Assembly (NCBI GenBank): GCA_002418885.1
Contig: DIEZ01000040.1
Span: 9,245 to 31,182 of the forward strand
Origin: Syntrophaceae bacterium UBA5761
GTDB lineage: Bacteria > Desulfobacterota > Syntrophia > Syntrophales > UBA4778
Length of the DNA: 21,938 nucleotides
Reading direction: 5' to 3'
A model generated the notes under the pieces. It worked only from the letters and a program-made list of their open reading frames with translations. It ran no database searches and was not told where the DNA came from. The translations under genes and the position numbers were made by a program. Shown in pieces: positions 3,573 through 21,919 of the stretch. Within the stretch, counting starts at the first letter, position 1. The number at the start of each line of letters is the position of its first letter.

Positions 3573-4280
3573 ATGGATAAATCGCGCGAGACCATCGGCG
3601 GGATGTTCGACAGAATAGCCCCATCTTACGACCTTCTCAACAAGGTATTGTCGCTTTACCTCGACGTCCTATGGCGGAAGAAGGCCCTCAAGCATCTTGC
3701 AGTCAAGGACGATGAGCAGGTGCTGGACATCGCCACGGGGACGGGCGACCTGGCGCTGGAGGCCTTGAAGACGGGGGGAGCCTGCCGCGTCTGCGGCCTC
3801 GACTTCTCGGAAGAGATGATGCGGGCGGCCGCGGCCAAGCGGGACAGGCTGGGCCTGCGGAACAGGTATCTCCTTGTCGCCGGCGACGCCCTGCGGATGC
3901 CCTTCAAGGAAAGGAGCTTCGACGGTGCCATGGTCGCCTTCGGCGTCAGGAATATGCCCGACGTCGGAGGTTTTTTCAGAGAAGCGCATCGGATCTTGCG
4001 AGACGGGGGGAGGTTGGCCGTCCTGGAACTTTCTCTTCCCGCGAATCCTTTCATCCGGGAGTGTTACCTTCTGTATTTCAAGAAGTTCCTACCCCATATC
4101 GGGGGCCTGCTCTCCGGGCGCTCAACAGCCTACCATTACCTGAGGGATTCCGTTCTCGACTTTTATGCCCCGCGACAGGTCGAAGAACTCCTCTGCAACT
4201 CCGGCTTCACTGTTTTGCGGTCCATCCCTCTCTCCTTCGGCGTCTGTCACCTTTACCTTGCAGAGAAACCATCCTCTTAG
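3573..4280 (+). CDS. ubiE: Demethylmenaquinone/ubiquinone C-methyltransferase UbiE/MenG
   Basis: A 235-residue SAM-dependent methyltransferase that would carry out the final C-methylation of demethylmenaquinone (or the ubiquinone-ring methylation). The family N-terminus is clear (GGMFDRIAPSYDLLNKVLS), followed by SAM-binding motif I VLDIATGTGDLAL at about residue 50, the GLDFSEEMM segment, and the post-I region with FGVRNMPD, all characteristic of UbiE/MenG rather than a generic methyltransferase. No other quinone gene is present, so which quinone is used cannot be told; menaquinone is likely if the organism is anaerobic. The ribosome-binding site is poor (no clear GGAGG before 3573). It sits between phoB and the pstS promoter, with a 42-base gap after phoB, so it is probably transcribed with phoB. 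Confidence 0.92.
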   Translation: MDKSRETIGGMFDRIAPSYDLLNKVLSLYLDVLWRKKALKHLAVKDDEQVLDIATGTGDLALEALKTGGACRVCGLDFSEEMMRAAAAKRDRLGLRNRYLLVAGDALRMPFKERSFDGAMVAFGVRNMPDVGGFFREAHRILRDGGRLAVLELSLPANPFIRECYLLYFKKFLPHIGGLLSGRSTAYHYLRDSVLDFYAPRQVEELLCNSGFTVLRSIPLSFGVCHLYLAEKPSS

Positions 4281-4303
4281 GTCTTAATCATATTTTTACC
4301 GGG

Positions 4304-4337
4304 TTGTCATCAAACTGTAACAACGGTGCCTTATCCT
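4304..4337 (+). promoter_or_regulatory. Pho box and -10 element upstream of pstS
   Basis: TTGTCAT (4304-4310), a CAAA spacer, then CTGTAAC (4315-4321) form two 7-base direct repeats spaced like the E. coli Pho box. Exactly 10 bases later comes TATCCT (4332-4337), the -10 position used by PhoB-activated promoters that lack a normal -35. The pstS ATG follows 33 bases downstream of the -10. This predicts PhoB-dependent induction of pstS, and of pstCAB by read-through, at low phosphate. Confidence 0.82.
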
Positions 4338-4369
4338 TGCCCAAAATCAAAATAGGGAGGAAAGTAAAA

Positions 4370-5188
4370 ATGCACAGAATCCTTAAATATGTGGCAGCAA
4401 CGCTCGTGGCGCTTTTTTTCACCCCAGTTTTCGCCGTTGCCGCTGAAACCGTTGTGATCAAGGGGTCGACAACCGTGCTTCCAATCGCGCAGGCGGCGGC
4501 TGAAGCCTTCATGAAGAAACGTCCCGACATCAACATCTCGTTATCGGGGGGAGGGTCCGGAGACGGAATAAAGGCACTCATAGACAAGTCTACCGACATC
4601 GCCAACTCTTCGCGGGATATGAAACCGGAAGAGGTAAAGCTCGCCAGGGAAAGGGGCGTCGATCCCGTCGCCCACCGGGTGGCTATAGACGCCATCGTCC
4701 CGATCGTCCATCCCGCAAACCCGATCACGGACCTCACCATCGAACAACTGAGCCTGATTTACCAGGGCAAGATCACCAACTGGAAAGAGGTCGGAGGGGC
4801 GGATAAAAAAATCGTTGTAATCTCGCGGGATACCAGTTCCGGTACGTACGAGACATGGGAGCAGAAGGTTCTCCATAAAGCGAAGGTCACCCCCCGGGCC
4901 CAACTGCAAGCCTCCAACGGGGCCATTGTCCAGGCCGTCTCGAAGAATAAATACGCCGTCGGGTACATCGGGATCGGCTACCTTAATAAGGCCGTTAAGG
5001 GTTTGAAGATTGCTGGCGTTCAGGCGTCCGCGCAGACGGCCCTTTCCGGACAGTATCCGATTGCGCGGCCCTTGTTCATGTTTACGAACGGGCAGCCGAA
5101 GGGGGCGACTGCCGAGTACATCAAGTTTTTGCTCAGCCCGGAGGGACAGAAGATCGTAAAAAAGGAAGGGTTTGTCCCCCTTAAGTAG
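4370..5188 (+). CDS. pstS: Periplasmic phosphate-binding protein PstS
   Basis: The substrate-binding subunit of the high-affinity PstSCAB phosphate importer, 272 residues. The first about 25 residues form a Sec signal peptide (basic MHRILKY, hydrophobic ATLVALFF core, cleavage near AVAA/E). The mature protein begins ETVVIKGSTTVLPIAQAAAEAF and contains LSGGGSGDGIKAL, NSSRDMKPEE and SRDTSSGTYETW, the phosphate-contacting segments of this family. The frame is open upstream into ubiE, but the ATG at 4370 is nine bases after GGGAGG and gives a proper signal peptide, so it is the true start. It lies under the Pho box at 4304 and is followed by an intrinsic terminator before pstC, which should let it be made in excess over the membrane subunits. 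Confidence 0.96.
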   Translation: MHRILKYVAATLVALFFTPVFAVAAETVVIKGSTTVLPIAQAAAEAFMKKRPDINISLSGGGSGDGIKALIDKSTDIANSSRDMKPEEVKLARERGVDPVAHRVAIDAIVPIVHPANPITDLTIEQLSLIYQGKITNWKEVGGADKKIVVISRDTSSGTYETWEQKVLHKAKVTPRAQLQASNGAIVQAVSKNKYAVGYIGIGYLNKAVKGLKIAGVQASAQTALSGQYPIARPLFMFTNGQPKGATAEYIKFLLSPEGQKIVKKEGFVPLK

Positions 5189-5235
5189 AGTATGCAGGCG
5201 GCGGGTGCTTTTCGGTCGAGCGTCGTGTAAAATGC

Positions 5236-5268
5236 AGAGGCAATCCTTTCCCTGGGTTGCCTCTTTTT
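5236..5268 (+). terminator. Intrinsic terminator/attenuator between pstS and pstC
   Basis: AGAGGCAA (5236-5243) pairs perfectly with TTGCCTCT (5257-5264); the stem can grow by TCC/GGG to about 11 pairs with a 7-base loop, and T residues run from 5264 to 5268. It starts 47 bases after the pstS stop and ends 29 bases before the pstC ATG. Partial termination here would set the PstS to PstCAB ratio. Confidence 0.8.
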
Positions 5269-5297
5269 CACCCTTTTTACGTTTACGGAAACAATTC

Positions 5298-6185
5298 ATG
5301 TCCAGGAAACTCAAAGAGAGTATCATAAAAAACCTTCTCCTTTTCTTTGCAGGTGGTTCCATCCTGATTCTGGGACTCATCGTTTTCTTTTTGTTCCGTG
5401 AAGCCTTGCCCATCTTCAGGGTGGCCACCATCGCTGATTTCATCTTCGGGACAGAGTGGTATCCCACCTACGATCCGCCTGAGTTCGGGATATGGCCCCT
5501 TATCGTCGCATCGCTTATAGTAACTTTTTTCTCGACTATGATCGCCGTGCCCGTAGGTGTTCTGTCCGCCGTGTACATTTCCGAGATCGCGCATCCGCTG
5601 ATGAAGGAGTTTCTGAAACCCGTCATCGAACTACTTGCCGGGATACCGTCGGTCGTGCTCGGTTTCTTCGGTATGGTGGTCGTTGCCCCGTGGATGCAGG
5701 AGACATTCGACCTGCCGACGGGGCTGAACATAGTCAACGCCTCCGTGATGCTGGCTATCATGGCCATTCCCACCATCTCGAGTATTTCCGAAGATGCCCT
5801 TTATTCGGTGCCGCGGGAATTCAAGGAGGCGTCTTATGCATTGGGTGCGACAAAATGTGAAACCATTCTGCGGGTGACGATCCCGGCGGCGTTTTCGGGC
5901 ATCTCGACGGCGGTCATTCTCGGAATGGCCAGGGCGATTGGAGAGACGATGGTTGTTCTGATGGTGGCGGGAGGGGCGGCGGCGATACCCGAGAGCCTGT
6001 TTGACGCCGTCAGGCCCATGCCGGCAAGCATCGCGGCGGAGATGGGCGAGGCGCCCTTTGGCAGCAATCATTACCACGCCCTCTTCGCCATAGGCGTAGT
6101 CCTCTTTTTCCTGACGTTGATCTTTAATCTGGTTGCAGACTATCTTTCCCACAGGTTCAGAGAAGTGGGTTCGGCGACACTATGA
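5298..6185 (+). CDS. pstC: Phosphate ABC transporter permease PstC
   Basis: An inner-membrane permease subunit, 295 residues with about six predicted transmembrane helices. The first is at about residues 15-38 (LLLFFAGGSILILGLIVFF). The family signature EASYALGATKCETILRVTIPA is the EAA loop that contacts the ATPase PstB. Other PstC hallmarks are GTEWYPTYDPPEFGIWPLI and the ELLAGIPSVVLGFFG segment. The frame is open back to 5172, but that extension would overlap pstS and the terminator and is basic and unlike the family, so the ATG at 5298 (MSRKLKE) is preferred. The ribosome-binding site is weak. The stop overlaps the pstA start by four bases (ATGA), indicating translational coupling. Confidence 0.95.
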   Translation: MSRKLKESIIKNLLLFFAGGSILILGLIVFFLFREALPIFRVATIADFIFGTEWYPTYDPPEFGIWPLIVASLIVTFFSTMIAVPVGVLSAVYISEIAHPLMKEFLKPVIELLAGIPSVVLGFFGMVVVAPWMQETFDLPTGLNIVNASVMLAIMAIPTISSISEDALYSVPREFKEASYALGATKCETILRVTIPAAFSGISTAVILGMARAIGETMVVLMVAGGAAAIPESLFDAVRPMPASIAAEMGEAPFGSNHYHALFAIGVVLFFLTLIFNLVADYLSHRFREVGSATL

Positions 6186-7072
6186 GTCTTGTGGGATACA
6201 CGGTTCAAAATCCGGCGCTGAGATGGCGCTATCTCAAACAGGTGCTTTTTTTCGGCGTCGTGAGGCTGTGCGTGATCATCATCGCAGTCTCTCTCGGCGG
6301 CATTTTGTTATACATCTTTATCAACGGCATCGGAGTGGTCAGCCTTGATTTCCTGACGGAGGCCCCACGAGATTCGATGACGGCGGGGGGCATCATGCCG
6401 GCCATCCTCGGGACGTTCTATCTTACCCTGGGGGCGATCGGGATTGCGCTTCCTCTCGGGGTCACATCGGCCGTCTATCTGAGTGAGTATGCCAAGCAGG
6501 GGCCGCTTGTCCGTGTGATCCGCATCGGCATCAATTGCCTCGCCGGTGTGCCTTCTATCGTTTTCGGTCTTTTCGGGTTGAGCTTCTTCGTTGTATACTT
6601 ACGTTTCGGCTCCTGTATCCTTTCGGGCGCCTTGACACTCGGTTTTCTCGTTCTGCCGACGATCATAGGGGCCTCGGAGGAGGCGTTGAGGGCGGTGCCG
6701 CAGACCTTCCGTGAGGCCTCCCTCGCCCTCGGGGCATCGAAGTGGCAGACGACCCTGAGGGTGGTTCTGCCCAACGCCTTGCCGGGTATCCTGACGGGTT
6801 CCATCCTCGGAATAGGGCGTGCGGCGGGGGAGACGGCCCCCATCATGTTTACGGCCGCGGCCTTTTTCACGGCAAGGCTGCCCCAGTCCGTCTTCGACGA
6901 GGTCATGGCCTTGCCATATCACATCTACGTGCTGGCGACGGCGGGGACGCACATCGACCAGACAAGGCCTATTCAGTATGGAACAGTCCTGGTGCTTCTG
7001 GCGCTCGTTCTCGGCGTGGATTTGATCGCTATTGCGGTGCGGAGTTATGTGAGGAGAAAAAAGCGGTGGTAA
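6182..7072 (+). CDS. pstA: Phosphate ABC transporter permease PstA
   Basis: The second membrane subunit of the Pst importer, 296 residues with about six transmembrane helices. It carries [18 protein letters not shown] near residue 76, the [15 protein letters not shown] segment, and the EAA loop [22 protein letters not shown] that docks on PstB. The long periplasmic loop near the C-terminus with [10 protein letters not shown] is typical of PstA and separates it from PstC. Its ATG overlaps the pstC stop codon (ATGA), and pstB begins five bases after its own stop. It forms the permease heterodimer with PstC. Confidence 0.95.
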
Positions 7073-7076
7073 TGGC

Positions 7077-7853
7077 ATGATCAATAACGGTATCATAAGA
7101 AACAAGATCATTGAAGTCAGAGACGTTGATTTTTATTACGGAGCGTTCAAGGCGCTATCCGGTGTCACGATGGATTTTGAGAAGAACAGGGTTACGGCCC
7201 TCATCGGCCCCTCGGGCTGCGGTAAATCGACGCTCCTGCGCCTTCTGAACAGGATGAATGACCTCATCGACGACACGCGGATCGAAGGAAGCGTCCTTTT
7301 TGAGGGGCGGAACATCTACGACCCTGATATGGATCCAGTAGAAGTACGTAAACGGATAGGCATGGTTTTCCAGAAACCCAACCCCTTTCCCAAGTCGATC
7401 TTCAATAACATCATCTACGGGCCGAAACTCGTGGGAGTTAACGGTAAGGACGACCTCGAAGTCCTTGTCGAGCAGAGCCTGAGGCAGGCCGTACTCTGGG
7501 ATGAAGTCAAGGATATCCTTGGACAGTCGGCCATGATGCTCTCGGGGGGACAGCAGCAGCGGCTGTGCATCGCCAGGGCCCTGGCCATGAAACCAGACGT
7601 CCTTTTGATGGATGAACCGACGTCCGCCCTCGACCCCATTTCGACCGCCAAGATCGAGGAACTGATCGAAGAGTTGAAAAGAAACTACACGATCATCATC
7701 GTCACCCACAATATGCAGCAGGCCGCCCGTATTTCGGATTATACGGGATTTTTTTATCTGGGGAGTCTCATAGAGTACAATGAGACGGAGAAGATCTTCA
7801 CCAAGCCCGATGTCAAGCAGACGGAGGATTACATCACTGGGCGCTTCGGCTGA
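7077..7853 (+). CDS. pstB: Phosphate ABC transporter ATP-binding protein PstB
   Basis: The 258-residue cytoplasmic ATPase that powers phosphate import through PstCA. Walker A is GPSGCGKST (44-52), the ABC signature LSGGQQQR begins at L155, and Walker B ends in D179-E180 (LLMDEP), followed by the D-loop SALD and the H-loop [25 protein letters not shown] is the PstB-specific Q-loop region. The length matches the family. The gene starts five bases after pstA with little ribosome-binding site of its own, so coupling is likely, and phoU follows after 19 bases. Confidence 0.96.
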
Positions 7854-7872
7854 GCCCTGAAAGGATTGCGTA

Positions 7873-8571
7873 ATGGAAGAAAAGAGGCACACGAGCTCCC
7901 AGTATGAGCGAGAACTTCGGGAGGTCAAGGACGGCCTGATGTACCAGGGGGCGCTCACGGAAAAAGCGATCGACTCCGCCCTCCGGTCTCTTCTGGAGCG
8001 GAATTCCGACCTTGCTCGCATGGTGATCGTCGAAGACGACCGGATCGACGCCTTTGATGCGGAGCTGGAAGATAAGTGCATAACACTTTTGGCGTTGCGG
8101 CAGCCGGCGGCAAGAGACTTGAGATTTATCGCGACGGCCATCAAGGTCAACGGACATCTGGAAAGGATCGGGGATATGGCCGTCAACATCGCCCAGAAGG
8201 CGATCATCCTGAACGAAGAGCCCCAGCTCAAGCCTTACATCGACCTTCCGAGGATGGCGGATATCACAAGGGAAATGATCAAGGAAGGCCTCGACGCCAT
8301 GGTTAACGAAGATGTTTCTCTGGCCGACAGGGTCAGAACAGCGGAGGACACGGTTGACGGCTTGAACGAACAGATATTTCGTGAACTCCTGACTTTCATG
8401 ATGGAAGATCCGAAGACGATCCACCGGGCCTTGATCATCATGCAGATATCGAAGAACCTGGAAAGGATCGCCGACCACGCGAAGGGTATCGCCGACATGG
8501 TGATTTACATGGTGACGGGAAAAAGCGTGAGGCACCAGTTCCATGCCACAACCGACAGGGAGACTCCATGA
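7873..8571 (+). CDS. phoU: Phosphate transport system regulator PhoU
   Basis: A 232-residue, all-helical cytoplasmic protein made of two PhoU repeats. It inhibits PhoR signalling and restrains Pst import when phosphate is sufficient. Each repeat shows the metal-cluster motif: ERIGDMAVNIAQ at about 97-108 and LERIADHAKGIADMV at about 196-210. RQPAARDLRFI is also diagnostic. AAAGGA precedes the ATG at a good distance. The last codons overlap phoR by four bases (ATGA), physically linking the inhibitor and the kinase it controls. Confidence 0.95.
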   Translation: MEEKRHTSSQYERELREVKDGLMYQGALTEKAIDSALRSLLERNSDLARMVIVEDDRIDAFDAELEDKCITLLALRQPAARDLRFIATAIKVNGHLERIGDMAVNIAQKAIILNEEPQLKPYIDLPRMADITREMIKEGLDAMVNEDVSLADRVRTAEDTVDGLNEQIFRELLTFMMEDPKTIHRALIIMQISKNLERIADHAKGIADMVIYMVTGKSVRHQFHATTDRETP

Positions 8572-10310
8572 GGAGCAGGTTGTTCTATAAGGTGTTCGCA
8601 ACCTACCTCGTTGTGACGATCCTTTCGGTATCCGTCGTGTCTATTCTGGTGGGCCATGAGGTAAAGAGGTCTTCAACGAAGGGCGTTGAGGAGGAGTTGA
8701 CGGCCTACGCCCGAATCATAGACTTTAGCATGGGAAAGGACATTGGGGCAAAGGTGGAAAGGTTGGCCTCCGCGTCGCGTTCCCGCGTCACCCTGATCGA
8801 CGCCGTGGGCAATGTCACCGTCGACTCGGAACGGGCAGTCGCCGGGATGGAAAACCATCTGAACCGTCCGGAAATTCAGGAGGCCAGGGTCAAGGGGAGG
8901 GGAAGCGCAGTCAGGTTCAGTTCAACGGTCGGGGTTGATATGCTTTACGTGGCCGTTCCCGTCGAAGAAGGCGGGTACGTCCGGCTGGCGCGCCCGCTCT
9001 ATGAAGTCAAGCAATCCATCGACAGCATCTACCGTTCTTTCTTTACGGCCCTTCTTCTCGTCATCCCTCTTTCGCTCTTGGTGGCCTTTGTTTTTTCCTA
9101 TCGGCTTACCACGCCTATCAAGTCCATGGAGGAATTCACGGAGAAACTGAGGCGGGGGGACGTCTCAGGGTCGCTTCTCGTAAAAACGACCGACGAGGTG
9201 AAACAGCTTGCCGACAACATCAACTATCTCGTCGTGGAGCTGCAGGAGAAAATCCGGGTGGCCGACGAAGAGAGAGGGAAGCTCGTTGCTGCCTTCGCGA
9301 GCATGACCGAAGGGGTTTTGATCCTTGACGGCGAGGGAAGGATCGAGGTCTTCAACCGGGCGTTCCGGGAGATGTTTGCCCCCCGGTACGGAGACGTCCA
9401 GGGCAAAACCATGATCGAGGCCTTCCGGAATCTCGACCTGCAGAATGCCTTCGACCGTTTCAAAAAAACAGGCGGGCCGACGACGGAAGAGATCACGATG
9501 GGCGCCTTGAACCCGGTCATACTCGACGTCAGCATTTCGTCGATTCCGGGGGAGGAGAAGACCATGATCGTCTTTCACGACGTGACGCGCCTCAAAAAGT
9601 TAGAAGAGATGCGGGTGGACTTCGTGGCAAACGTTACCCATGAAATCAGAACCCCCCTGACCGCTATCCTTGGGTTCATCGAGACCCTGCAGGAGGGGGC
9701 CATTGAACAGGAGGGGACGGCAAAGAAGTTTCTGGAGATCATCTCGCGGCACGCCGGGAGGCTAAACCGCCTCGTGGAGGATCTATTGACGCTATCCGAT
9801 ATCGAGCTCGGCGAGATGAAATTCTTCTTTGAAAGCGTATACCTGAGCGGCATCGTGGAGAACGTCCTGCCCGTAGTAGCCGCACGGGCGGCGGAAAAGA
9901 AGATTGCCATTGTGAAGGAGATTCCGGAGAATCTTCCGCCGGTCAGGGCCGACCGCGACCGGCTGGTCCAGATACTGTTGAACATCCTTGACAATGCGGT
10001 CAAGTTCACGCCTGATTCGGGGAAAATAACGCTGTCGGCAGCGGCGGAAGGAGACGACTATGTGGTCGTGCGGGTCGAGGATACGGGTATCGGCGTGCCG
10101 GCAGACGAAATACCCCGGCTGGGAGAACGTTTCTACCGGGTGGACAAGACGCGGTCGAGGGAGATGGGCGGAACGGGACTGGGATTGTCCATCGTCAAGC
10201 ACCTCATAGCTGCGCACGGCGGCCGGATGGAGATCGAAAGCCGGCTGGGAAAAGGAACAATCGTATCCTTATTATTTCCCGCCATGAAGGACACGGCATT
10301 GCGGTTATGA
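8568..10310 (+). CDS. phoR: Phosphate regulon sensor histidine kinase PhoR
   Basis: A 580-residue membrane kinase expected to phosphorylate PhoB at D51. Domain order: TM1 about 10-29, extracytoplasmic sensor about 30-157, TM2 about 158-180, HAMP about 181-235, PAS about 245-345, HisKA with phospho-acceptor H358 (NVTHEIRTPL), and the ATPase domain with the N-box around N472-N476 (NILDNAVKF), G1 DTGIGVP and G2 GGTGLGLSIVKH. All catalytic motifs are present. The large extracytoplasmic domain is like Gram-positive or deltaproteobacterial PhoR and unlike E. coli PhoR, which has almost no periplasmic part. Its first about 100 residues align without gaps to the stand-alone sensor protein at 20169-20744. 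The start overlaps the phoU stop. PhoR is inferred from context plus architecture. Confidence 0.92.
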   Translation: MRSRLFYKVFATYLVVTILSVSVVSILVGHEVKRSSTKGVEEELTAYARIIDFSMGKDIGAKVERLASASRSRVTLIDAVGNVTVDSERAVAGMENHLNRPEIQEARVKGRGSAVRFSSTVGVDMLYVAVPVEEGGYVRLARPLYEVKQSIDSIYRSFFTALLLVIPLSLLVAFVFSYRLTTPIKSMEEFTEKLRRGDVSGSLLVKTTDEVKQLADNINYLVVELQEKIRVADEERGKLVAAFASMTEGVLILDGEGRIEVFNRAFREMFAPRYGDVQGKTMIEAFRNLDLQNAFDRFKKTGGPTTEEITMGALNPVILDVSISSIPGEEKTMIVFHDVTRLKKLEEMRVDFVANVTHEIRTPLTAILGFIETLQEGAIEQEGTAKKFLEIISRHAGRLNRLVEDLLTLSDIELGEMKFFFESVYLSGIVENVLPVVAARAAEKKIAIVKEIPENLPPVRADRDRLVQILLNILDNAVKFTPDSGKITLSAAAEGDDYVVVRVEDTGIGVPADEIPRLGERFYRVDKTRSREMGGTGLGLSIVKHLIAAHGGRMEIESRLGKGTIVSLLFPAMKDTALRL

Positions 10311-12582: not shown

Positions 12583-13332
12583 CTACTCTGCCCCGTCAAG
12601 GTTATTTGAATTGGTATCCTCTTTGAAGCGGGTTATTTCAACCTCGCCTTCATTCTTTAAGAGCGCCTTCGCATTCTCGACGGCCTTTTCCATGTCTTCC
12701 TTCGGATTCTTCGACATCTCACCGTGTCCGGGGTATATCTCTGAGATCTGTCTCGTGCTCAGTGACAGTATGGAATTGATATAATCGCCGATGCTTCCCG
12801 ATTCGGCTATGTACGAGAGTGTTCCGCCGGCAAAGAGGGTATCGCCTGTGAAGAGAAACCTCCCGACCGGTTCGTAGATGCAGATGGAACCAGAGGTATG
12901 ACCGGGGGTGTGGATGATATTGAGGCTGTAATTGCCTAAATCAAAGCGGCTCTTGCTCTCCAGCCAGAGCTGGACTTTCAGCGGAATCTCGTTCAAATCG
13001 GCAGATTTATAAAGAGTAACGTATCGGTCGTCTAAGGTAATCTTTGTCGCAGCGAAGCGGTGGGCAGCGACGAGGGCATAATCCTGAAAGTAGCGGTTGG
13101 CGCCGATATGGTCGAAGTGTTCGTGTGTATTAATCACTATGTCTATATCCTTGACCTTTATTCCGATCTTCAAAAGAGATTTCTGGAGGGCAGGGAAATT
13201 TGCATCTACGCCGGAATCGATGAGGATGATCGCGTAATCTCCCCTGATGATGTAACTGTGGCTGCTGGTTCCATGTCCTTTGATCAAAAAAATATCAGGC
13301 TGCAGTTCCAGTATATCGCTCTCTTTTCCCAT
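12583..13332 (-). CDS. Metallo-beta-lactamase-fold hydrolase
   Basis: A 249-residue MBL-fold protein with the full dinuclear metal motif: H70-E-H72-F-D74-H75 (NTHEHFDHIG), H145 (TPGHTSGSI), D164 (FTGDTLFAGG) and H203 (PGHGE). The arrangement resembles glyoxalase II-like and other small thioesterase or lactonase members; the substrate cannot be told. No signal peptide, so cytoplasmic. The frame is open to a TTG at 13389, but the ATG at 13332 (MGKESDILELQPD) has a GGGAG upstream and starts right at the conserved fold, so it is preferred. With this start it overlaps the STAS gene upstream by 38 bases, which implies coupled translation and perhaps a shared signalling task. Its base composition looks more A+T-rich than the pst region, by eye. 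Confidence 0.85.
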   Translation of the reverse strand: MGKESDILELQPDIFLIKGHGTSSHSYIIRGDYAIILIDSGVDANFPALQKSLLKIGIKVKDIDIVINTHEHFDHIGANRYFQDYALVAAHRFAATKITLDDRYVTLYKSADLNEIPLKVQLWLESKSRFDLGNYSLNIIHTPGHTSGSICIYEPVGRFLFTGDTLFAGGTLSYIAESGSIGDYINSILSLSTRQISEIYPGHGEMSKNPKEDMEKAVENAKALLKNEGEVEITRFKEDTNSNNLDGAE

Positions 13333-13684
13333 ATCTTCTTTTCTCCCAGGGGCTGTTTTCCGCGCTATCCAGGTCATCGTAAACGTCAAATATCCGGTAC
13401 AGCCCGTTTTTTAGTAGATAGTCTTTTATACGCGGCCTTAATGAGCAGATCTTCAAATATCCGTTCGCAAGATCCACCTCTTTTTTGAATGCGTTGATTA
13501 TGGACAGCTGTGCAAGTACGTTGCTATCTTCGTCTATGCCTCCCAGGTCTATTACTATCCTTGGTTCCTTTCTGTCTCGCCAGGGACGCAAAATATCCCG
13601 GGCTGAAAAAGGAGCGCTCTTACTCAATGACCCACCGACCTCCGCGAGAATAAAAGCCTTTTTTTCAATCACATTGCATTTCAT
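13295..13684 (-). CDS. STAS-domain protein (anti-sigma-factor-antagonist-like)
   Basis: A 129-residue protein whose middle reads PRIVIDLGGIDEDSNVLAQL, then about 40 residues later LKICSLRPRIKDYLLKNGLYRIFDVYDDLDSA. This is the STAS pattern of SpoIIAA-like proteins: a beta-strand ending in D, the DS phospho-site loop, a helix, then the strand with a GL..F.IYDD-like end. The serine of EDSN corresponds to the site phosphorylated by partner-switching kinases, but the usual DSxG glycine is N-V here, so a classic partner-switch role is uncertain. No RsbW/SpoIIAB kinase or PP2C phosphatase is adjacent. GAGG lies 11 bases before the ATG. The gene runs 38 bases into the MBL hydrolase gene. The last about 20 residues are basic and not STAS-like. 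Confidence 0.65.
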   Translation of the reverse strand: MKCNVIEKKAFILAEVGGSLSKSAPFSARDILRPWRDRKEPRIVIDLGGIDEDSNVLAQLSIINAFKKEVDLANGYLKICSLRPRIKDYLLKNGLYRIFDVYDDLDSAENSPWEKRRYGKRERYTGTAA

Positions 13685-13910: not shown

Positions 13911-13967
13911 ACAAAACACATAAAATGATTGTATATGTTACCCGAATCAATATGTAGGGGGGGTTCG

Positions 13968-15455
13968 ATGAAAGAATGGATGAAGAAGTTGCAGTTGCAT
14001 TACGAGCGGATCAGGAGCCTTCATCCCGAAGATAGATTGATGATTCTTTTTGACATCGACGGCACGATTCTGGACATGCGCCATATGATCCTATCTACAC
14101 TCCGGTCTTTTGACAACCGGCATGGCACTCACTATTTTCGCGACCTCAAAATCGAGAATATACAGGTTCATGAGACGGACATCGTCGCGTTGCTCGACAA
14201 GCTCGCGATTCAAGAAAAAGATATAGCGCGCGTGGTCGAGTGGTATGAAAAAAACTTCTGGTCGGCGGACTCCGTCATGGAATCCCATAGGCCCTTCATG
14301 GGCGTCATGGAGGTGATCCGATGGTTTCAGATCCAGCCGAAAACCTTCGTGGGCTTAAACACCGGGAGGCCCGAATGCATCAGAGCGGATACGCTTCATT
14401 CCCTCAACAAGATAGGGCAGGAGTTCAAAGTGCGTTTCGGCAATGAATTTCTCTACATGAACAAGAACGGATGGGAGGGCGACATCGTCACTTCTAAAAT
14501 TGCGGGTGTCCTCCATTTTCAGAAGTGCGGGTACCGAATATTCGCTTGCGTTGACAACGAACCGGAAAATCTGAGGGCCATAGCCGGCGTAGACCCGCTG
14601 AAACAAATTCTTTTGCTCCATGCCGACACTTTATTCAAGTCGAAACGCAGGCGGTTGCCTCCCCACGCCGTCAGCGGAAAACGATATGACCTTGCCACAC
14701 TCATTCAGGAAAAGGCGCTTCCAAAACACGTGCAATTTGTTTGGCATGGGGTGAATGACGAAGTGAACCTGAGACAATTCCTTGCATCGGGAATTCAGTG
14801 GGCGGAATGCGATGTTCGCCTGGACCCTGCCCGAGACAGGGTCATCCTTCGAGACGACTCTTTTGAAAGCGTTCCTCTCCAGGAAGATGAGCGTCTCCTG
14901 ACACTGGAGGACGTTCTCGACCCCATTTGTCACACGGGCAAATCCGTGAAGCTTGATTTGAAAGAGAACGGTAACCTGATCGACCGGGTCTTGTGGGTTC
15001 TCCGCCGATATTCCTTTGACGGTATGAACCTGTGGTTCAACGGTCGCGTCGACGAATTGAAACAGGAAGGGTTTCGCAAACTGGCCGGGGCCTTCCCCCA
15101 ATCCGTTATTCAGGTCCCTATCGATTCCCTCGTTCCTCTTATCTTGAGTGTCCCCGGAGAAGCCCTGGCCCTTCTCGACAAGTTTAGAAGTTGGGGCGTA
15201 AATCGTTTTTCCATGAGCTGGAAATCATCGAATATCCATCGCGTTCTCGACAAGCTGGACAAATGGGGGTTTGAAGCCAACATTTACAATGTCCCGGATC
15301 TGGAGTCTTTTCTGCAGGCCGTGCTGCTTTTGCCCGCATCCGTGACCTCGGATTTCAATTTTCCGAAATGGCACTATTACGGCAGGGGATCAGGCGAAAA
15401 CCAGAAAAGGCATTCTTATAAAATCGTCAGAACCACGCAGAGCTTGTCCCTATAG
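13968..15455 (+). CDS. HAD-family hydrolase fused to a menorin/GDPD-like phosphodiesterase barrel
   Basis: A 495-residue two-domain protein with no signal peptide. Residues about 20-225 form a HAD-type domain: motif I FDIDGT with nucleophile D29 and D31, motif II around GLNTGRP (T132), and the final acidic motif VDNEPEN near D196. Residues about 250-475 resemble the PLC-like phosphodiesterase TIM barrel, closest in layout to menorin/FAM151 and glycerophosphodiester phosphodiesterases: WHGVN (H260, N263), AECDVRL (E280, D282), VKLDLK (K328, D330) and LWFNGRV. The second catalytic histidine of those families (HD or HP) seems replaced by R295 in VILRDDS. GGGGGGG seven bases upstream supports the ATG at 13968 over the in-frame ATG at 13929. 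It heads a tight four-gene run. A combined phosphatase/phosphodiesterase on a phospholipid or its head group is a guess. Confidence 0.72.
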   Translation: MKEWMKKLQLHYERIRSLHPEDRLMILFDIDGTILDMRHMILSTLRSFDNRHGTHYFRDLKIENIQVHETDIVALLDKLAIQEKDIARVVEWYEKNFWSADSVMESHRPFMGVMEVIRWFQIQPKTFVGLNTGRPECIRADTLHSLNKIGQEFKVRFGNEFLYMNKNGWEGDIVTSKIAGVLHFQKCGYRIFACVDNEPENLRAIAGVDPLKQILLLHADTLFKSKRRRLPPHAVSGKRYDLATLIQEKALPKHVQFVWHGVNDEVNLRQFLASGIQWAECDVRLDPARDRVILRDDSFESVPLQEDERLLTLEDVLDPICHTGKSVKLDLKENGNLIDRVLWVLRRYSFDGMNLWFNGRVDELKQEGFRKLAGAFPQSVIQVPIDSLVPLILSVPGEALALLDKFRSWGVNRFSMSWKSSNIHRVLDKLDKWGFEANIYNVPDLESFLQAVLLLPASVTSDFNFPKWHYYGRGSGENQKRHSYKIVRTTQSLSL

Positions 15456-15508
15456 ATTGACCGGAAGGTCGGAATGGAGATGCCTAATATGAAAAGGGGG
15501 GATGAACG

Positions 15509-17980
15509 ATGAGTCGACTCCATACCATCACCGAGTATCTTGAACGAAAAAATGCCTCGCCGCCCGACGACCCCGAATTCCTGAAGAAGATCGTCGAGCT
15601 GATGGGAATCGACACCCGGAGCGGTGGGGCGCTGGTTGAGACGCTTCCCTTTTCCGGAAACGATGCAACGGCAGGTGCGGAGACGGAACTCCAGGCCGCC
15701 GTCATCGGCAGACGAAGCGATGTCGACCTACCCATCATGATCGAACAATCCAATTATTACGCTAACATTATGAGGCGGACAGCGGCTGGAGACACACCCA
15801 GAAAGGTCATTACCGACCTCGAAAAGTGGTTGACCTCAAACCAGGAAAATGTTTGGGAAAACAGTTGGGTCCGCTTTCCCCGGGCCGTGTTGAGCTCCTT
15901 TGCCGAAGATGTTTTCCGGAAAGACCTGTTGGCCGATAAACAAAGCCGGAACGCCGTTTTGAGGAGCGATGCGCATAAGTTCGTCGTTTCCGTCGGGGGC
16001 GAGGAATACCTCCGGGTCCCGCTCAGTTACCTGCTCAAGCTGGCTCTGGCTGATGTGGTCAGTGCGAGTGCTGATGTGCCCCGACCGATTCACAGGGTGG
16101 GCTGCGAGTTGATGGAACATTTTCTCAGCGACAACACCTCTCCGGAGACGCATTCCTTTTGGCTGGTCTTTTCCGGCAAGGACAGCGACACGGGAAAGGG
16201 GATTGCCGGAGAAACTTCGATACGATTCCTTCTTACGCAACTTCTCATCATGTATGCCAACCGGAAGTTTTGCCTGGCCGGGAACGGACAGAAGGCCATC
16301 ATATTCTCTTCGCCCCATCCTCCTGTCAGGCAGAAATGGCTTAACGATTGCATTTCTGACGCCTTTTACAGAGAACTGTTCATGAATCCCTGTCTGTCGG
16401 GTTGGGACAGGGGAGAGCTAAAACTGGAATACATGCATCTATGCCACGGGGTGTTGAGCAGGAGTCAGCTCAATAGCGTGGCCAAGCTCAAGGAAGCGGG
16501 CATCCTCACCAGGAATCTGGTAGTCCTGCCCAACCTTTCGAATATCAGCCTCGCCAATAACGGGACTCATATCAGCTTAGGGAGCCGAAGACTATCAAAG
16601 CTGCTGTCAGAGCCGTCATCGGGATTCACCCGCATTCACGAAAAATATGTGGGTGATCTGGTGATTAAGATAATGGAACACTTCCTGCCGCTTTTTGTGG
16701 GGACCTACAGTGCGGCGCCGTACCGTTTCGATTTCCAGGATTTTCACCCTGAAAAGGTTCTGGGATTTCTTCCCCATGAACTCGATTACACCCACCTAAG
16801 GATGTTCTGGCGGCGATGGAAGAAGAAGGCGCATATCAGTATCCTGGGAAGATCCTTGACTCCCTTCGGTATTGCCCGGCTTGATCGGATAGTCAGCGGC
16901 CTTTTCGGCCTGCATGGTGATTACGTCCCTGATCTACGCCTTATCGATTATCCGGTCATGCTCATGAGCACGGAAAAGAGTCCCGCGCTGGATGGAAAGC
17001 TTGGAAACTCCGATAGGCTGAAAAGAGATCTTTCCGATCTCGGCATCTTCGATGCTCGCATGTCCCTCTATATCCTATACAAGCTTCGGGAATATGAGGT
17101 CATGGGATTTTCGGGTTTTGAAGGACGTCATTACAGTCTCTTCGAGAATTACGAGGAGGATATGGGAAGGGCGGCTCAACTGCAGATCCTGATTGCCGCG
17201 CTTGCCTATAAATACGTTGCCATGGGTCTGTACGCACACACCCACATTCCCGACGACCCTTTTGTTGAAAGCGAACGCCGACAGGTGATCTTTGGAACGG
17301 CTGCCGGGATACCGACTTTTTTCGTCAGGAGTGACACGATAAACCTATTTCTCCGGAGAATTCTCCGGCGGGTATCCCGCATGCGTAAGAGTAGACGGTA
17401 TCCCGGATACCTCAGGGTGCACAACGTGGAATATCGGAAAGCCCTGGTCCATGTCTTGGAGGAAGATGCCGCCGACCTCATCGAGTGCTTGTGCATGAAG
17501 GAAACTCTTAAGGATCTCATGAACCGCCTGGATAACGACGAGTTTTCAGCGGCCGGCAGATTGACCCGCGGGGTCGTCGAAGAAGCGAACACGAACGACC
17601 CCATGAAACTGAATGCGCAAGAATTCAACAGCGCGGCCGAAAGGTATTACCGTGAACGGCTGAGGAAACGACATCTGACGGAGGCCATCCTGTGCCTGGA
17701 GAGGGGTCTTGTAAATATGGAAAGGCATTCGCAGGACGTCGACTCTGTATCAACCCTTGCTCTCAAGACGACGCTCGGCCACCAGCGCCCCAATGACTTC
17801 CTTCAACTTGTCAAGGAGGATGTCATAGAGGATCGGATTTCTCTGGGAGATATCATCAAACTAATTTACCTTTCTCTTCTCTATACGTATATGGAAAGAT
17901 GTAAGGCAAAGTCGTTGTCAAGAAGGATTTATGACGATGAAGACAGGACATCACCAGTATCTGGACCGGGAATCCGGTAA
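15509..17980 (+). CDS. Large conserved-looking protein of unknown function (823 residues)
   Basis: I do not recognise this family. It is a long, mostly soluble protein with no signal peptide and no clear transmembrane helix. It has several blocks that look constrained: GAETELQAAVIGRRSD (56-71), WENSWVRFPR near 116-125, GEEYLRVPLSYLLKLALAD (164-182), FEGRHYSLFENYEEDMG (537-553), ALAYKYVAMGLYAHTHIPDD (564-583), FVESERRQVIFG (585-596), RRYPGYLRVHNVEYRKAL (629-646) and EFNSAAERYYRERLRKRHL (705-723). The His/Asp/Glu/Arg-rich C-terminal half suggests an enzyme. The ATG follows GGGGGG at seven bases. It starts 53 bases after the HAD fusion, and its last 50 bases overlap the decarboxylase gene in another frame. 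The lipid-type genes around it suggest a role on the same substrate, but this is inference. Confidence 0.8.
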   Translation: MSRLHTITEYLERKNASPPDDPEFLKKIVELMGIDTRSGGALVETLPFSGNDATAGAETELQAAVIGRRSDVDLPIMIEQSNYYANIMRRTAAGDTPRKVITDLEKWLTSNQENVWENSWVRFPRAVLSSFAEDVFRKDLLADKQSRNAVLRSDAHKFVVSVGGEEYLRVPLSYLLKLALADVVSASADVPRPIHRVGCELMEHFLSDNTSPETHSFWLVFSGKDSDTGKGIAGETSIRFLLTQLLIMYANRKFCLAGNGQKAIIFSSPHPPVRQKWLNDCISDAFYRELFMNPCLSGWDRGELKLEYMHLCHGVLSRSQLNSVAKLKEAGILTRNLVVLPNLSNISLANNGTHISLGSRRLSKLLSEPSSGFTRIHEKYVGDLVIKIMEHFLPLFVGTYSAAPYRFDFQDFHPEKVLGFLPHELDYTHLRMFWRRWKKKAHISILGRSLTPFGIARLDRIVSGLFGLHGDYVPDLRLIDYPVMLMSTEKSPALDGKLGNSDRLKRDLSDLGIFDARMSLYILYKLREYEVMGFSGFEGRHYSLFENYEEDMGRAAQLQILIAALAYKYVAMGLYAHTHIPDDPFVESERRQVIFGTAAGIPTFFVRSDTINLFLRRILRRVSRMRKSRRYPGYLRVHNVEYRKALVHVLEEDAADLIECLCMKETLKDLMNRLDNDEFSAAGRLTRGVVEEANTNDPMKLNAQEFNSAAERYYRERLRKRHLTEAILCLERGLVNMERHSQDVDSVSTLALKTTLGHQRPNDFLQLVKEDVIEDRISLGDIIKLIYLSLLYTYMERCKAKSLSRRIYDDEDRTSPVSGPGIR

Positions 17981-18983
17981 AGTTCTTACGGAAAAACTTT
18001 ACGGGGATAGGGCGGTGCGCTTTCTTTATTCCTCGTTGCGGGAAAGAGCTCCCGCATTGTTTCGCGCGGTGACCAGCGCCCGGATATGCAGTTTTCTGGC
18101 GTTTATAAGTTTTAATGATTTCCTGTCGGAAAGGCGTTCAGGTTATAAAGAATTGATGAACGCCTGTAGAATCAACCTGACTGAGTGCTTGGAATGTCCC
18201 GACCGTCTCGATACCCTCGAGAAAATCTTTCAAAGAAAGATTCGCTATTGGGAGTGTCGACCGATGCCGAAAGAAACATGCACGGTGGTCTCTCCGGCCG
18301 ACGCAAAGGTCCTGTTGGGTTCCTTTTGCGAGACGTCGAGCCTTTTCATCAAAGGAAAGTTCTTCGATTATGAGGAATTATTAGGTCGTGACAAAACTGA
18401 CTGGTTGACTGCTTTTTGCGAAGGGGATTTTGCCGTCTTCAGGCTGACGCCTGACAAATACCACTACAACCACACGCCCGTGGCCGGTAGAGTCGTCGAT
18501 TTCTATGAAATACAAGGAGAGTACCATTCCTGTAATCCTGATGCCGTCATCAGTGTAGCCACCCCTTACTCCAAGAACAAACGGGTGGTAACGGTCATCG
18601 ACACAGACGTGCCGGGCGGAACGGGTGTGGGTCTTGTGGCTATGATCGAGGTCGCGGCCCTGATGGTCGGCCAGATCGTCCAGTGCTACAGCAAAGAGAA
18701 ATATGATGACCCGGTGCCGATTTACCAGGGCCTTTTTATGGACAAAGGGATGCCGAAAAGCCTTTTTCGTCCCGGCAGCAGCACGGACATTCTGGTATTG
18801 CAAAAGGGTCGTATGCGTTTTTCTGAGGACCTTGTTTGCAACTTGCGCCGTCCGGACGCCGAAAGCCGTTTTACCGTGGGATTCGGTCAACGCCTTGTAG
18901 AGACGGACGTCAAGGTTAGGTCCTTGATCGGGCAGGCGGTAGACCTTCCAACCTCGCAGAACCTCAACAATGAGCCACTATGA
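17931..18983 (+). CDS. psd: Phosphatidylserine decarboxylase-like proenzyme
   Basis: A 350-residue member of the PSD family of self-cleaving pyruvoyl enzymes, which turn phosphatidylserine into phosphatidylethanolamine. The cleavage motif is PGSST (281-285): cut expected between G282 and S283, making a pyruvoyl group from S283; this replaces the usual LGST. D124 (SPADAKV) and H181 (YHYNHTPVAG) match the catalytic Asp and His of the family. KFFDYEELLG, YHSCNP and DTDVPGGTGVGLVAMIEV are also family-like. It is longer at the N-terminus than short bacterial PSDs, with HQYLDRESGKV as the first conserved stretch. The ATG at 17931 (or 17937) follows AGAAGG inside the end of the upstream gene. It overlaps the next gene by four bases. 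Whether its substrate is phosphatidylserine itself is not certain. Confidence 0.85.
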   Translation: MTMKTGHHQYLDRESGKVLTEKLYGDRAVRFLYSSLRERAPALFRAVTSARICSFLAFISFNDFLSERRSGYKELMNACRINLTECLECPDRLDTLEKIFQRKIRYWECRPMPKETCTVVSPADAKVLLGSFCETSSLFIKGKFFDYEELLGRDKTDWLTAFCEGDFAVFRLTPDKYHYNHTPVAGRVVDFYEIQGEYHSCNPDAVISVATPYSKNKRVVTVIDTDVPGGTGVGLVAMIEVAALMVGQIVQCYSKEKYDDPVPIYQGLFMDKGMPKSLFRPGSSTDILVLQKGRMRFSEDLVCNLRRPDAESRFTVGFGQRLVETDVKVRSLIGQAVDLPTSQNLNNEPL

Positions 18984-20032
18984 TTGACTTGATTTTTATC
19001 GTCGTCCTCGTCCTTCTGTTTACCTTACTTTTTGGTTGGAGTTTCAAACATTTGCCCGAGGAGCGATGGCAGATACTGGCATCCGTTCCGGTCAAGAAAG
19101 TTTCTCCCGGCGTATGGGAGGGCGTGAATTTGACTTATTACGGTTTGCTGAACGCAAATGCGATTGCCATTGCCGTATCCATCTTTTTCGTTCTGACCGG
19201 GGCCGTCAGAGTCCCGCTCTCCCTGACTTTAGCGACGGCTTTCCTTGTCCTACTTTTATGCGTGCCTGCATCGAGGATCCTCGCCCGGCTGATTGAGAAA
19301 AAGGCCTTCACCTCTACTGTCGGCGGCGCATCATTCGTAGGCCTGCTGGTTGCCCCGGTGGTTCTATGGGCCATGAACGGCGCCCGGCATATGATTGCCG
19401 CGGATCCGTTTAATCCCATGCCGATCCTGGCGGCGATAGCTGTTGCGTATGCGTTCGGAGAAGGGTCGGGGCGGCTGGCCTGCATCAGTTTCGGTTGCTG
19501 CTACGGGAAACCCCTTTCTCAATGCGGCCGTGCACTTCAAGCGGTGTTCAGGCATTGCAGTTTTGTCTTCTCGGGCGAAACGAAGAAGATTGCCTACGAG
19601 AGCGGTCTGGAGAACCAGAAAGTTATTCCCACCCAGGCCATTACAGCCGTTATCTGTGTCGGGATAGGACTTGTCGGAACCTATCTTTTCCTGCAGGCTC
19701 TCTTCACAGCCGCTTTTCTGGTAGCGGTTCTTGGGACGCAGGTCTGGCGGATCGTGTCAGAGACGCTGAGAGCGGATTGGCGGGGTGGAGGACGTATGAC
19801 GGCTTATCAGCTCATGAGCTTTGGGGGCGCCGCGTATGCCGTTTTTATTGCGACGGTGATGCCTGCGAGACCCGACCCTGTCGTGAGCGTGGTAGACGGG
19901 TTGCGATCGTTACTGCACCCGGGCACGATTTTTTTTCTTCTCCTGTTGTGGTTTTTCAGCTTTATCTATACGGGGCGCAGCCGGGTGACCGGGTCCCAGG
20001 TGACGGTGTACGTGCACCCTGGTCGGATCTGA
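18980..20032 (+). CDS. Lgt-like integral membrane protein (prolipoprotein diacylglyceryl transferase family)
   Basis: A 350-residue polytopic membrane protein with about seven to eight hydrophobic helices. Lgt features are visible: GGASF near 115-119, EGSGRLACISFGCCYGKP (161-178; R165 matches the essential arginine of GRxGN), IPTQ (217-220; HPTQ in Lgt) and R257..E261..R264 matching the EFFR region. However, the FHGG motif reads FVGL, so the essential histidine is V120, and the usual Asn after GR is C168. Canonical Lgt moves diacylglycerol from phosphatidylglycerol to a lipobox cysteine; this one may have another acceptor or activity, and a standard lgt probably exists elsewhere. It starts on the ATGA shared with the decarboxylase stop, so the two are translationally coupled. 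I leave the symbol blank because the active site differs. Confidence 0.78.
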   Translation: MIDLIFIVVLVLLFTLLFGWSFKHLPEERWQILASVPVKKVSPGVWEGVNLTYYGLLNANAIAIAVSIFFVLTGAVRVPLSLTLATAFLVLLLCVPASRILARLIEKKAFTSTVGGASFVGLLVAPVVLWAMNGARHMIAADPFNPMPILAAIAVAYAFGEGSGRLACISFGCCYGKPLSQCGRALQAVFRHCSFVFSGETKKIAYESGLENQKVIPTQAITAVICVGIGLVGTYLFLQALFTAAFLVAVLGTQVWRIVSETLRADWRGGGRMTAYQLMSFGGAAYAVFIATVMPARPDPVVSVVDGLRSLLHPGTIFFLLLLWFFSFIYTGRSRVTGSQVTVYVHPGRI

Positions 20033-20168: not shown

Positions 20169-20744
20169 TCAATCTTCTGTCACCCGTGACGCTATGAATC
20201 TTGAAAAGAGAAGCGCAAGAATGAGGGAAGGAATCACGACAATGTACAACGTTATGTGTATCGCCCGATATAGAATATCTATCGATTTCGTCACTGCGGT
20301 CATCGGACGTGCCAATCGAATGTAACCCTTGATGCGGGAATTTTCTTTGATCGGGAAAGCTACATACAGCATGCTTTCCTGGATTGTCACACTGAAGCGT
20401 GATGACTTGCCTTGTCCTTCTTTGACGGCCTGCTGGATTTCGGGCCGGTTTAGATGGTTGTCCATTTTTGACGCGTCGGCCTGAGAATTGGCCAGAACCC
20501 GTCCGGAAGGGTCTATGAGAGTCAACCGAACGTTCAGCTGTTTGGCTATCTCCGGAATGTCACTTTGAATGCGTTCTCCGGGAATGAAGGCCGTAACTCG
20601 GGCAACACTGAATAACTCGTCCTCCACTCCCTTTGTCATGATGTCCTTGATCTGCTGCGTGAGAAAAAAATCCAGGACGGCCACAGTAATGAGGACCAGT
20701 ATCAGATAAGAAGCGAATACTTTTACGAAGGTAAGACGTTTCAT
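20169..20744 (-). CDS. Stand-alone PhoR-type sensor protein lacking the kinase
   Basis: A 191-residue protein with TM1 at about 9-28, an extracytoplasmic domain at about 30-158 and TM2 at about 161-182, ending ten residues later. It matches the sensor part of PhoR at 8568 without gaps over the first about 100 residues (TKGVE at 37-41 and NHLNRPEIQ at 96-104 in both), and the two share MLYVA, YIRLARP/YVRLARP and KSID further on. HAMP, PAS, HisKA and ATPase domains are absent. It has its own ATG with GAGGGAG about ten bases upstream and no internal stop, so it may be a real small membrane protein, e.g. a modulator that pairs with PhoR. It could instead be the remnant of a duplicated kinase. It follows the PiT transporter gene by 176 bases on the same strand, which favours a phosphate-linked role. 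Confidence 0.75.
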   Translation of the reverse strand: MKRLTFVKVFASYLILVLITVAVLDFFLTQQIKDIMTKGVEDELFSVARVTAFIPGERIQSDIPEIAKQLNVRLTLIDPSGRVLANSQADASKMDNHLNRPEIQQAVKEGQGKSSRFSVTIQESMLYVAFPIKENSRIKGYIRLARPMTAVTKSIDILYRAIHITLYIVVIPSLILALLFSRFIASRVTED

Positions 20745-20920: not shown

Positions 20921-21919
20921 TTAAAATGAAGCTTTTGTGGCAAAATAGAAGGCCGCTGATATCAGTGCCGAGACCGGTATCGTCAGGACCCATGCCCAGA
21001 GGATATTCCCGGCAACGCCCCAGCGCACAGCCGTAAGGCGTTTTGTGGACCCGACGCCCATGATGGCGCCGGTGATGGTGTGGGTAGTGCTAACAGGGAT
21101 GCCTGCAGCGGAAGCCCCTATGATGGCGATGGCCGCGGCCGTTTCCGCGCAGAAACCGCCCATGGGTTGAAGTTTAGTGATTTTTGTGCCCATGGTTTTG
21201 ACGATGCGCCATCCCCCCGTCATGGTTCCAAGGGCTATGGCTGTGTAGCATGCGATCTCGACCCAGTAAGGGATATGAAAAGTCGACCCCAGGTAGCCGT
21301 TGTTGAAGAGGATGATCGCGATAATCCCCATGGTCTTCTGGGCGTCGTTCATCCCGTGACCCAGACTGTATACGGCGGCGGAGAAGAGCTGCAACCGCCG
21401 GAATACCCGGTCTGTCTTGCTCACCGTTTTTTTTCCTGAGATGTTCAGGACGAGGACCATCATGACGAACCCGAGAACGAGGCCGATGGTCGGCGAAAGG
21501 ACGATGAAGCTCGCCGTCTTGAGAATGCCCTCCCAGACGAGGGTTGCCGTGCCGCCCTTCATCACGGCGGCTCCGATCAGGCCGCCGATCAGGGCGTGGG
21601 AAGAACTGCTCGGCAGGCCCACCCACCATGTGATAAGATTCCATGCAATCGCACCGGCGAGGGCTGAGAGAATGAGGCGGTTGTCAACGATTGCGGGGTC
21701 GATGATGCCGGTTCCGACTGTCTTGGCGACGGCGACACCTATGAAGAACGCGGCGATAAAGTTGAAAAAGGCCGCGAAGAGGACGGCCTGCCTGGGTTTA
21801 AGAACACGGGTCGAGACGACGGTAGCGATCGAATTCGCTGCGTCATGGAATCCATTTATAAAGTCGAAAACAAGGGCAACAAGGATGACGAAAACGACGA
21901 CGGCCAAGGAATCACCCAT
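20921..21919 (-). CDS. pit: PiT-family inorganic phosphate transporter
   Basis: A 332-residue low-affinity phosphate symporter of the inner membrane with about ten hydrophobic helices. Both PiT signatures are present: FDFINGFHDAANSIATVVSTR near the N-terminus (about 19-39) and GHGMNDAQKTMGIIAI in the second half; GLPSSSSHALIGGLIGA and GIPVSTTHTITGAIMGVG are the paired serine-rich repeats of the fold. It is complete, with the ATG at 21919 only 19 bases from the window end, so any promoter or upstream DUF47/PhoU-like partner, common for this family, would be outside. It supplies phosphate when it is plentiful, complementing PstSCAB. The PhoR-like sensor gene lies downstream. Confidence 0.95.
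   Translation of the reverse strand: MGDSLAVVVFVILVALVFDFINGFHDAANSIATVVSTRVLKPRQAVLFAAFFNFIAAFFIGVAVAKTVGTGIIDPAIVDNRLILSALAGAIAWNLITWWVGLPSSSSHALIGGLIGAAVMKGGTATLVWEGILKTASFIVLSPTIGLVLGFVMMVLVLNISGKKTVSKTDRVFRRLQLFSAAVYSLGHGMNDAQKTMGIIAIILFNNGYLGSTFHIPYWVEIACYTAIALGTMTGGWRIVKTMGTKITKLQPMGGFCAETAAAIAIIGASAAGIPVSTTHTITGAIMGVGSTKRLTAVRWGVAGNILWAWVLTIPVSALISAAFYFATKASF

Follow-up and report, generated by a model that had tools for sequence, protein, structure and literature searches.

A three-gene set with lipid-enzyme relatives that looks like an undescribed pathway for making a modified membrane lipid in distantly related bacteria

Four tightly packed genes lie on the plus strand of the window analysed here, a stretch of 21,938 nucleotides from Syntrophaceae bacterium UBA5761 (contig DIEZ01000040.1, positions 9,245 to 31,182; assembly of 2.03 Mb in 89 contigs, 89% complete). 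The first (13968-15455; 495 amino acids) encodes a fusion of a HAD phosphatase with a menorin/GDPD-like barrel (HAD/barrel) and is an accessory upstream gene outside the conserved core. The three core genes encode U823 (15509-17980; 823 amino acids), a predicted carboxylate-amine ligase of the GCS/glutamine-synthetase fold; a pyruvoyl decarboxylase resembling phosphatidylserine decarboxylase (PSD-like; 17931-18983; 350 amino acids) with the autocleavage motif PGS-S284-T; and an integral membrane transferase resembling Lgt (LGT-like; 18980-20032; 350 amino acids). This three-gene set is kept side by side in scattered, distantly related bacteria. The gap of 53 bases and the following overlaps of 50 and 4 bases agree with a preliminary description of the locus, and purine runs resembling ribosome-binding sites precede U823 and PSD-like. 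That description also had the four genes read from one promoter, which finds no backing in the seven promoter-like matches, a number at shuffle expectation (mean 6.1). None of the four proteins scored above the cut-off of an NCBIfam model, and neither Rfam, at its gathering cut-off, nor tRNA searches of the window returned a hit. A defence system was rejected as an explanation, a PADLOC search of the four proteins giving no match at E <= 0.1.

Loci with U823 were collected from a contig scan (17 loci, one a fragment) and a sample of 297 genomes of the phylum, and were counted by tblastn. Two U823 fragments at contig ends (L018, G002) and four duplicate contigs (L006, L007, L009 and L017, equal to L058, L059, L063 and L074) were dropped before counting. 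In 42 of 43 distinct loci, U823 is followed by PSD-like and then by LGT-like, all on the same strand; in the 43rd (L016) the contig stops inside the PSD gene, and this locus was excluded from triad statistics. Both intergenic gaps, measured between match ends, are below 510 bases in 40 of the 42 triads, the wider ones being 2.6 kb between U823 and PSD (L067) and 4.8 kb between PSD and LGT (L066). Among the 297 genomes, 31 have full-length U823, and the PSD and LGT subfamilies each occur in 32, with all 31 shared. The co-occurrence that the preliminary description had proposed as its own test thus holds in 31/31 genomes with full-length U823. A 32nd genome (G002) has only a U823 fragment at a contig end. 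In genome G118, PSD and LGT sit 146 bases from the end of their contig, where the start of U823 would be expected, and no U823 was found elsewhere in that genome. In the Nitrospinota, the phylum of locus L010, 5 of 77 genomes match U823, L010's included, and the other four carry the triad too. Going by protein names, U823 also occurs in Candidatus Wunengus (Brocadiaceae), and Candidatus Brocadia has the LGT-like gene. The U823 tree mostly groups loci by family, with the five Nitrospinota together and Syntrophaceae as the nearest named relatives of the window. From this grouping, the triad appears to be ancient, passed on mainly by inheritance and frequently lost. A mobile element was rejected as an explanation, as tblastn with U823 found no match in 72,556 plasmid and 50,697 phage records. 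The pairwise distances of the three proteins correlate mutually beyond permutation.

PSD-like matches Pfam PS_Dcarbxylase (PF02666) with 130.2 bits against a cut-off of 22. The residues D124, H178, H181 and S284, which form the D-H-S autocleavage set, are kept in 46/46 rows, and S284 sits at the position of the serine that turns into the pyruvoyl group. According to PMC7952604, maturation of the E. coli enzyme depends mainly on D90/D142-H144-S254, with S254 within an LGST motif. PSD-like shares the Pfam match and the D/H/H/S residues with phosphatidylserine decarboxylase, but has PGSST or PGGST instead of LGST and stays under the NCBIfam equivalog cut-offs (132 versus 371; 78 versus 111.75). 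The PGSST motif had been read correctly in the preliminary description and is found in most copies, with PGGST in two, PGSSV in one and PGSSS in one. The accompanying claim that the enzyme departs from the standard in catalysis is not supported, given the intact residues and the two PGGST copies. PSD-like forms a subfamily of its own, and no PSD outside the 32 of this subfamily reaches 1e-40. Judging from these residues, PSD-like should be an active pyruvoyl decarboxylase, with phosphatidylserine as one possible substrate.

LGT-like has the predicted fold of Lgt and matches its Pfam family (PF01790; 31.3 bits, cut-off 24.9). Paired by motif and spacing with Lgt (structure 5azb), its Y54, R165, R257, E261 and R264 correspond to Y26, R143, R239, E243 and R246. 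These are kept in 69/69 rows of one alignment (A4), and in 41, 40, 41, 41 and 41 of 41 rows of another (A3). Counterparts of H103, N146, E151 and Y235 are lacking, their places being occupied by V120, C168, C173 and T253. The valine at the position of the HGG histidine had been noted before and is borne out, as histidine occurs there in 0/41 (A3) and 0/69 (A4) rows, the position varying among V, L, A, I, T, M, F and C. C168 and C173 are present in 69/69 rows and T253 in 66/69 (A4). PMC4728403 and PMC8689077 report that replacing H103, N146, E151 or Y235 inactivates E. coli Lgt, and PMC8689077 proposes the histidine as activator of the lipobox cysteine. A single search retained 8000 candidates, including at least 2724 homologues at E <= 0.001, and in the 297-genome sample the subfamily is sharply bounded, matches dropping from 1.6e-74 straight to 1.9e-7. 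A canonical Lgt is also present in 28 of the 31 U823 genomes (absent from G000, G160 and G280, which are 89, 91 and 87% complete), and a second PSD gene in all 31 (25 with two PSD matches, six with three). The triad PSD and LGT therefore look like dedicated paralogues.

The largest gene had been left unassigned, and Pfam indeed gives U823 nothing over its cut-off. Sequence searches stayed at chance level, with Pfam RMI1_N_N at E 0.11 (below cut-off), one NCBIfam model at E 0.17, and polyphosphate kinases in the PDB at E 0.60 and 0.64. By its predicted fold, U823 can be assigned to the GCS/glutamine-synthetase superfamily, whose fold the predicted structure shares; this assignment is new relative to the preliminary description. 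E58, E60, D73, H354, E538 and R540 are invariant in 97/97 aligned rows, and all of these except D73 sit in predicted strands. By motif order they may pair with the GxExE, Asp, His and ExR residues that we take to be the metal/ATP set of GshA. A GshA counterpart for E117 was dropped, as the presumed GshA E99 turned out to be a methionine. U823 differs from GshA (PF04262) and YbdK/GCS2 (PF04107) in its 823 residues and its fixed lipid-gene partners, and Pfam lists neither family for it at E <= 1. The spacing from E60 to D73 is 13 residues compared with 31 in GshA, and from D73 to H354 281 residues compared with 90 between D60 and H150 of GshA. The family of U823 is large and has no functional name, counting at least 2948 homologues at E <= 0.001 among 7992 candidates retained in one search. 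The best 120 listed homologues of U823, and likewise of LGT-like, are named only "hypothetical protein" or "prolipoprotein diacylglyceryl transferase".

The HAD/barrel gene, taken from within a larger open frame (13929-15455), had been described as a fixed operon member. It occurs in 5/297 genomes, two of these with U823, and stands beside the triad in 4/43 loci: the window and L002, where it lies upstream, and L003 and L005, where it lies downstream. A conserved four-gene operon is thus rejected, and the gene is an accessory to the triad. Half of a HAD/barrel gene lies near the triad on the opposite strand in L064. The N-terminal part falls among HAD proteins by a marginal Pfam match (HAD_2, 24.0 against a cut-off of 23.8), and the DxDGT motif (D29-I-D31-G-T) is present in 5/5 copies. 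The C-terminal part reaches 15.3 bits with Pfam Menorin, under the cut-off of 25. Taking the usual HD pair of menorin/GDPD-like barrels as the presumed catalytic reference, its histidine falls on D296, one residue beyond the R295 that had been named as its replacement. A histidine does stand at this position in one (L003) of the three full-length relatives.

The neighbourhood was scanned with Pfam for 116 of 231 open reading frames, taken from the 185 that have at least 100 and at most 520 amino acids, with loci L052 and L070-L077 excluded. No Pfam family recurs in more than 7 of these 116 neighbours, which gave no further functional clue. By eye, the window carries pstS-pstC-pstA-pstB-phoU and a PhoR-type kinase upstream of the four genes (4061-10310) and a PiT-type phosphate permease downstream (20921-21919). 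A 191-amino acid protein (20169-20744) resembles, again by eye, only the sensor part of that PhoR-type kinase and lacks a kinase domain, and L002 carries a 194-amino acid counterpart. Pho regulation is not supported: upstream of U823, Pho-box-like sites score at most 13/18, which 3-18% of shuffles reach. This score is found upstream of U823 in 7/47 loci, two being the same contig. The score upstream of the HAD/barrel gene is 13, compared with 15/18 for the pst promoter of the window (at 4304). PhnCDE-type transporters adjoin only a few triads. Overlapping genes of metallo-beta-lactamase-fold and STAS-like proteins lie on the minus strand (12583-13684). A family resembling DksA/TraR-type zinc fingers is encoded between PSD and LGT in L063 and L065, and beside the triad in L002, L059 and L060. 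Proteins of 617-856 amino acids, PHP-domain-like by eye, are encoded near the triads of L011, L012, L015, L066, L069 and L074.

We suggest that the triad is a dedicated three-enzyme cassette making an amide-bearing, amino-type membrane lipid, a reading to which we give about an even chance. U823 would be a soluble ATP-dependent ligase that converts a carboxylate, probably the gamma-carboxylate of glutamate, to an acyl phosphate and couples it to an amine. PSD-like would cleave itself to the pyruvoyl enzyme and decarboxylate a substrate with a free alpha-amino acid group. In one order of events, PSD-like would act on phosphatidylserine and yield the amine that U823 acylates. In the other, the U823 step would come first; since a gamma-glutamyl amide still has its alpha-amino acid group free, and this is the target of pyruvoyl decarboxylases, PSD-like would then yield a 4-aminobutyryl amide by decarboxylation. 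LGT-like, which retains several Lgt residues for holding and activating the phospholipid donor without the His/Asn/Glu/Tyr set, would transfer a diacylglyceryl group to some acceptor that is not a lipoprotein cysteine. HAD/barrel would be an optional add-on in some Syntrophaceae. A biosynthetic line to an amide-bearing aminolipid is consistent with the order of ligase, decarboxylase and transferase, with the dedicated paralogues and with a membrane enzyme in the set. Of the preliminary description, an uncharacterised set of genes that includes relatives of lipid enzymes and one large protein of no assigned family is supported; the four-gene membership and the departing PSD are not.

Several observations weigh against the aminolipid cassette. 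Foldseek searches by themselves gave nothing at E <= 0.001 for either U823 (best 2.6e-3) or LGT-like (best Lgt, 4.2e-3). No profile alignment was obtained between U823 and either E. coli GshA or a GCS2 protein (L080), so the active-site equivalence rests on the fold, the motif order and the GshA residues assumed for the pairing. We know of no lipid enzyme with the GCS/glutamine-synthetase fold, and the lipid reading therefore rests on the partner genes. With four residues essential in E. coli Lgt missing, LGT-like could do quite different chemistry, and the intact catalytic residues of PSD-like are equally expected of an ordinary phosphatidylserine decarboxylase. The distance correlations could stem partly from shared species history, as the U823 tree largely follows families. 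A role in phosphate starvation, hinted at by the surroundings of the window, is unsupported.

The triad might instead serve the phosphatidylethanolamine pool, with PSD supplying extra phosphatidylethanolamine, LGT-like remodelling phospholipids and U823 making some amide unconnected with these lipids, for instance a regulatory metabolite. The catalytic residues kept in all PSD-like rows make ordinary phosphatidylserine decarboxylation possible; yet each of the 31 genomes already has another PSD and the strict three-way linkage speaks for one pathway. We consider this explanation improbable. We rate just as low a lipidation of proteins or peptides, in which a PafA-like U823 would link a peptide carboxylate to phosphatidylethanolamine from the dedicated PSD, and LGT-like would add or exchange a diacylglyceryl anchor. 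U823 has no Pfam match to the PafA/Dop family (Pup ligase and depupylase) at E <= 1, and LGT-like lacks the histidine proposed in PMC8689077 to activate the lipobox cysteine. The lack of a recurring partner family also counts against lipidation, weakly, as a Pup-sized partner would be missed among reading frames of at least 100 amino acids and the rest of the genome was not searched. Least likely of all is that U823 is a gamma-glutamyl ligase where GshA is absent, its product decarboxylated and S-diacylglycerylated to give either a lipid-linked thiol or a gamma-glutamyl compound that is soluble: PF04262 GshA is indeed found in 0/31 U823 genomes and thiol alkylation is the normal reaction of Lgt, but 4/31 possess a GCS2 gene as well, GCS2 is missing in 37/39 phylum genomes yet full-length U823 occurs in only 31/297, and LGT-like is without the histidine proposed for thiol activation.

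In the literature accessible to us, we found no naming of the gene set or its product, which is weak evidence of absence as most subscription papers fall outside that coverage. Databases label some copies of the third gene as Lgt, though these lack residues that Lgt needs. Anoxic environments contain unassigned lipids. A bolder version of the aminolipid cassette, which we consider rather unlikely in full, would have U823 form a gamma-glutamyl amide, PSD-like convert it to a 4-aminobutyryl group and LGT-like add phospholipid-derived diacylglycerol. The product would be a new, possibly phosphorus-free class of aminolipids, and the first membrane-lipid pathway driven by an amide ligase of the glutamine-synthetase fold, in sulfate reducers, syntrophs, Geobacter kin, Nitrospinota and anammox planctomycetes. 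Taken together, the three genes look like a pathway, not described before, that leads to a modified membrane lipid, and such a three-gene marker would allow a lipid structure to be tied to genes and organisms.
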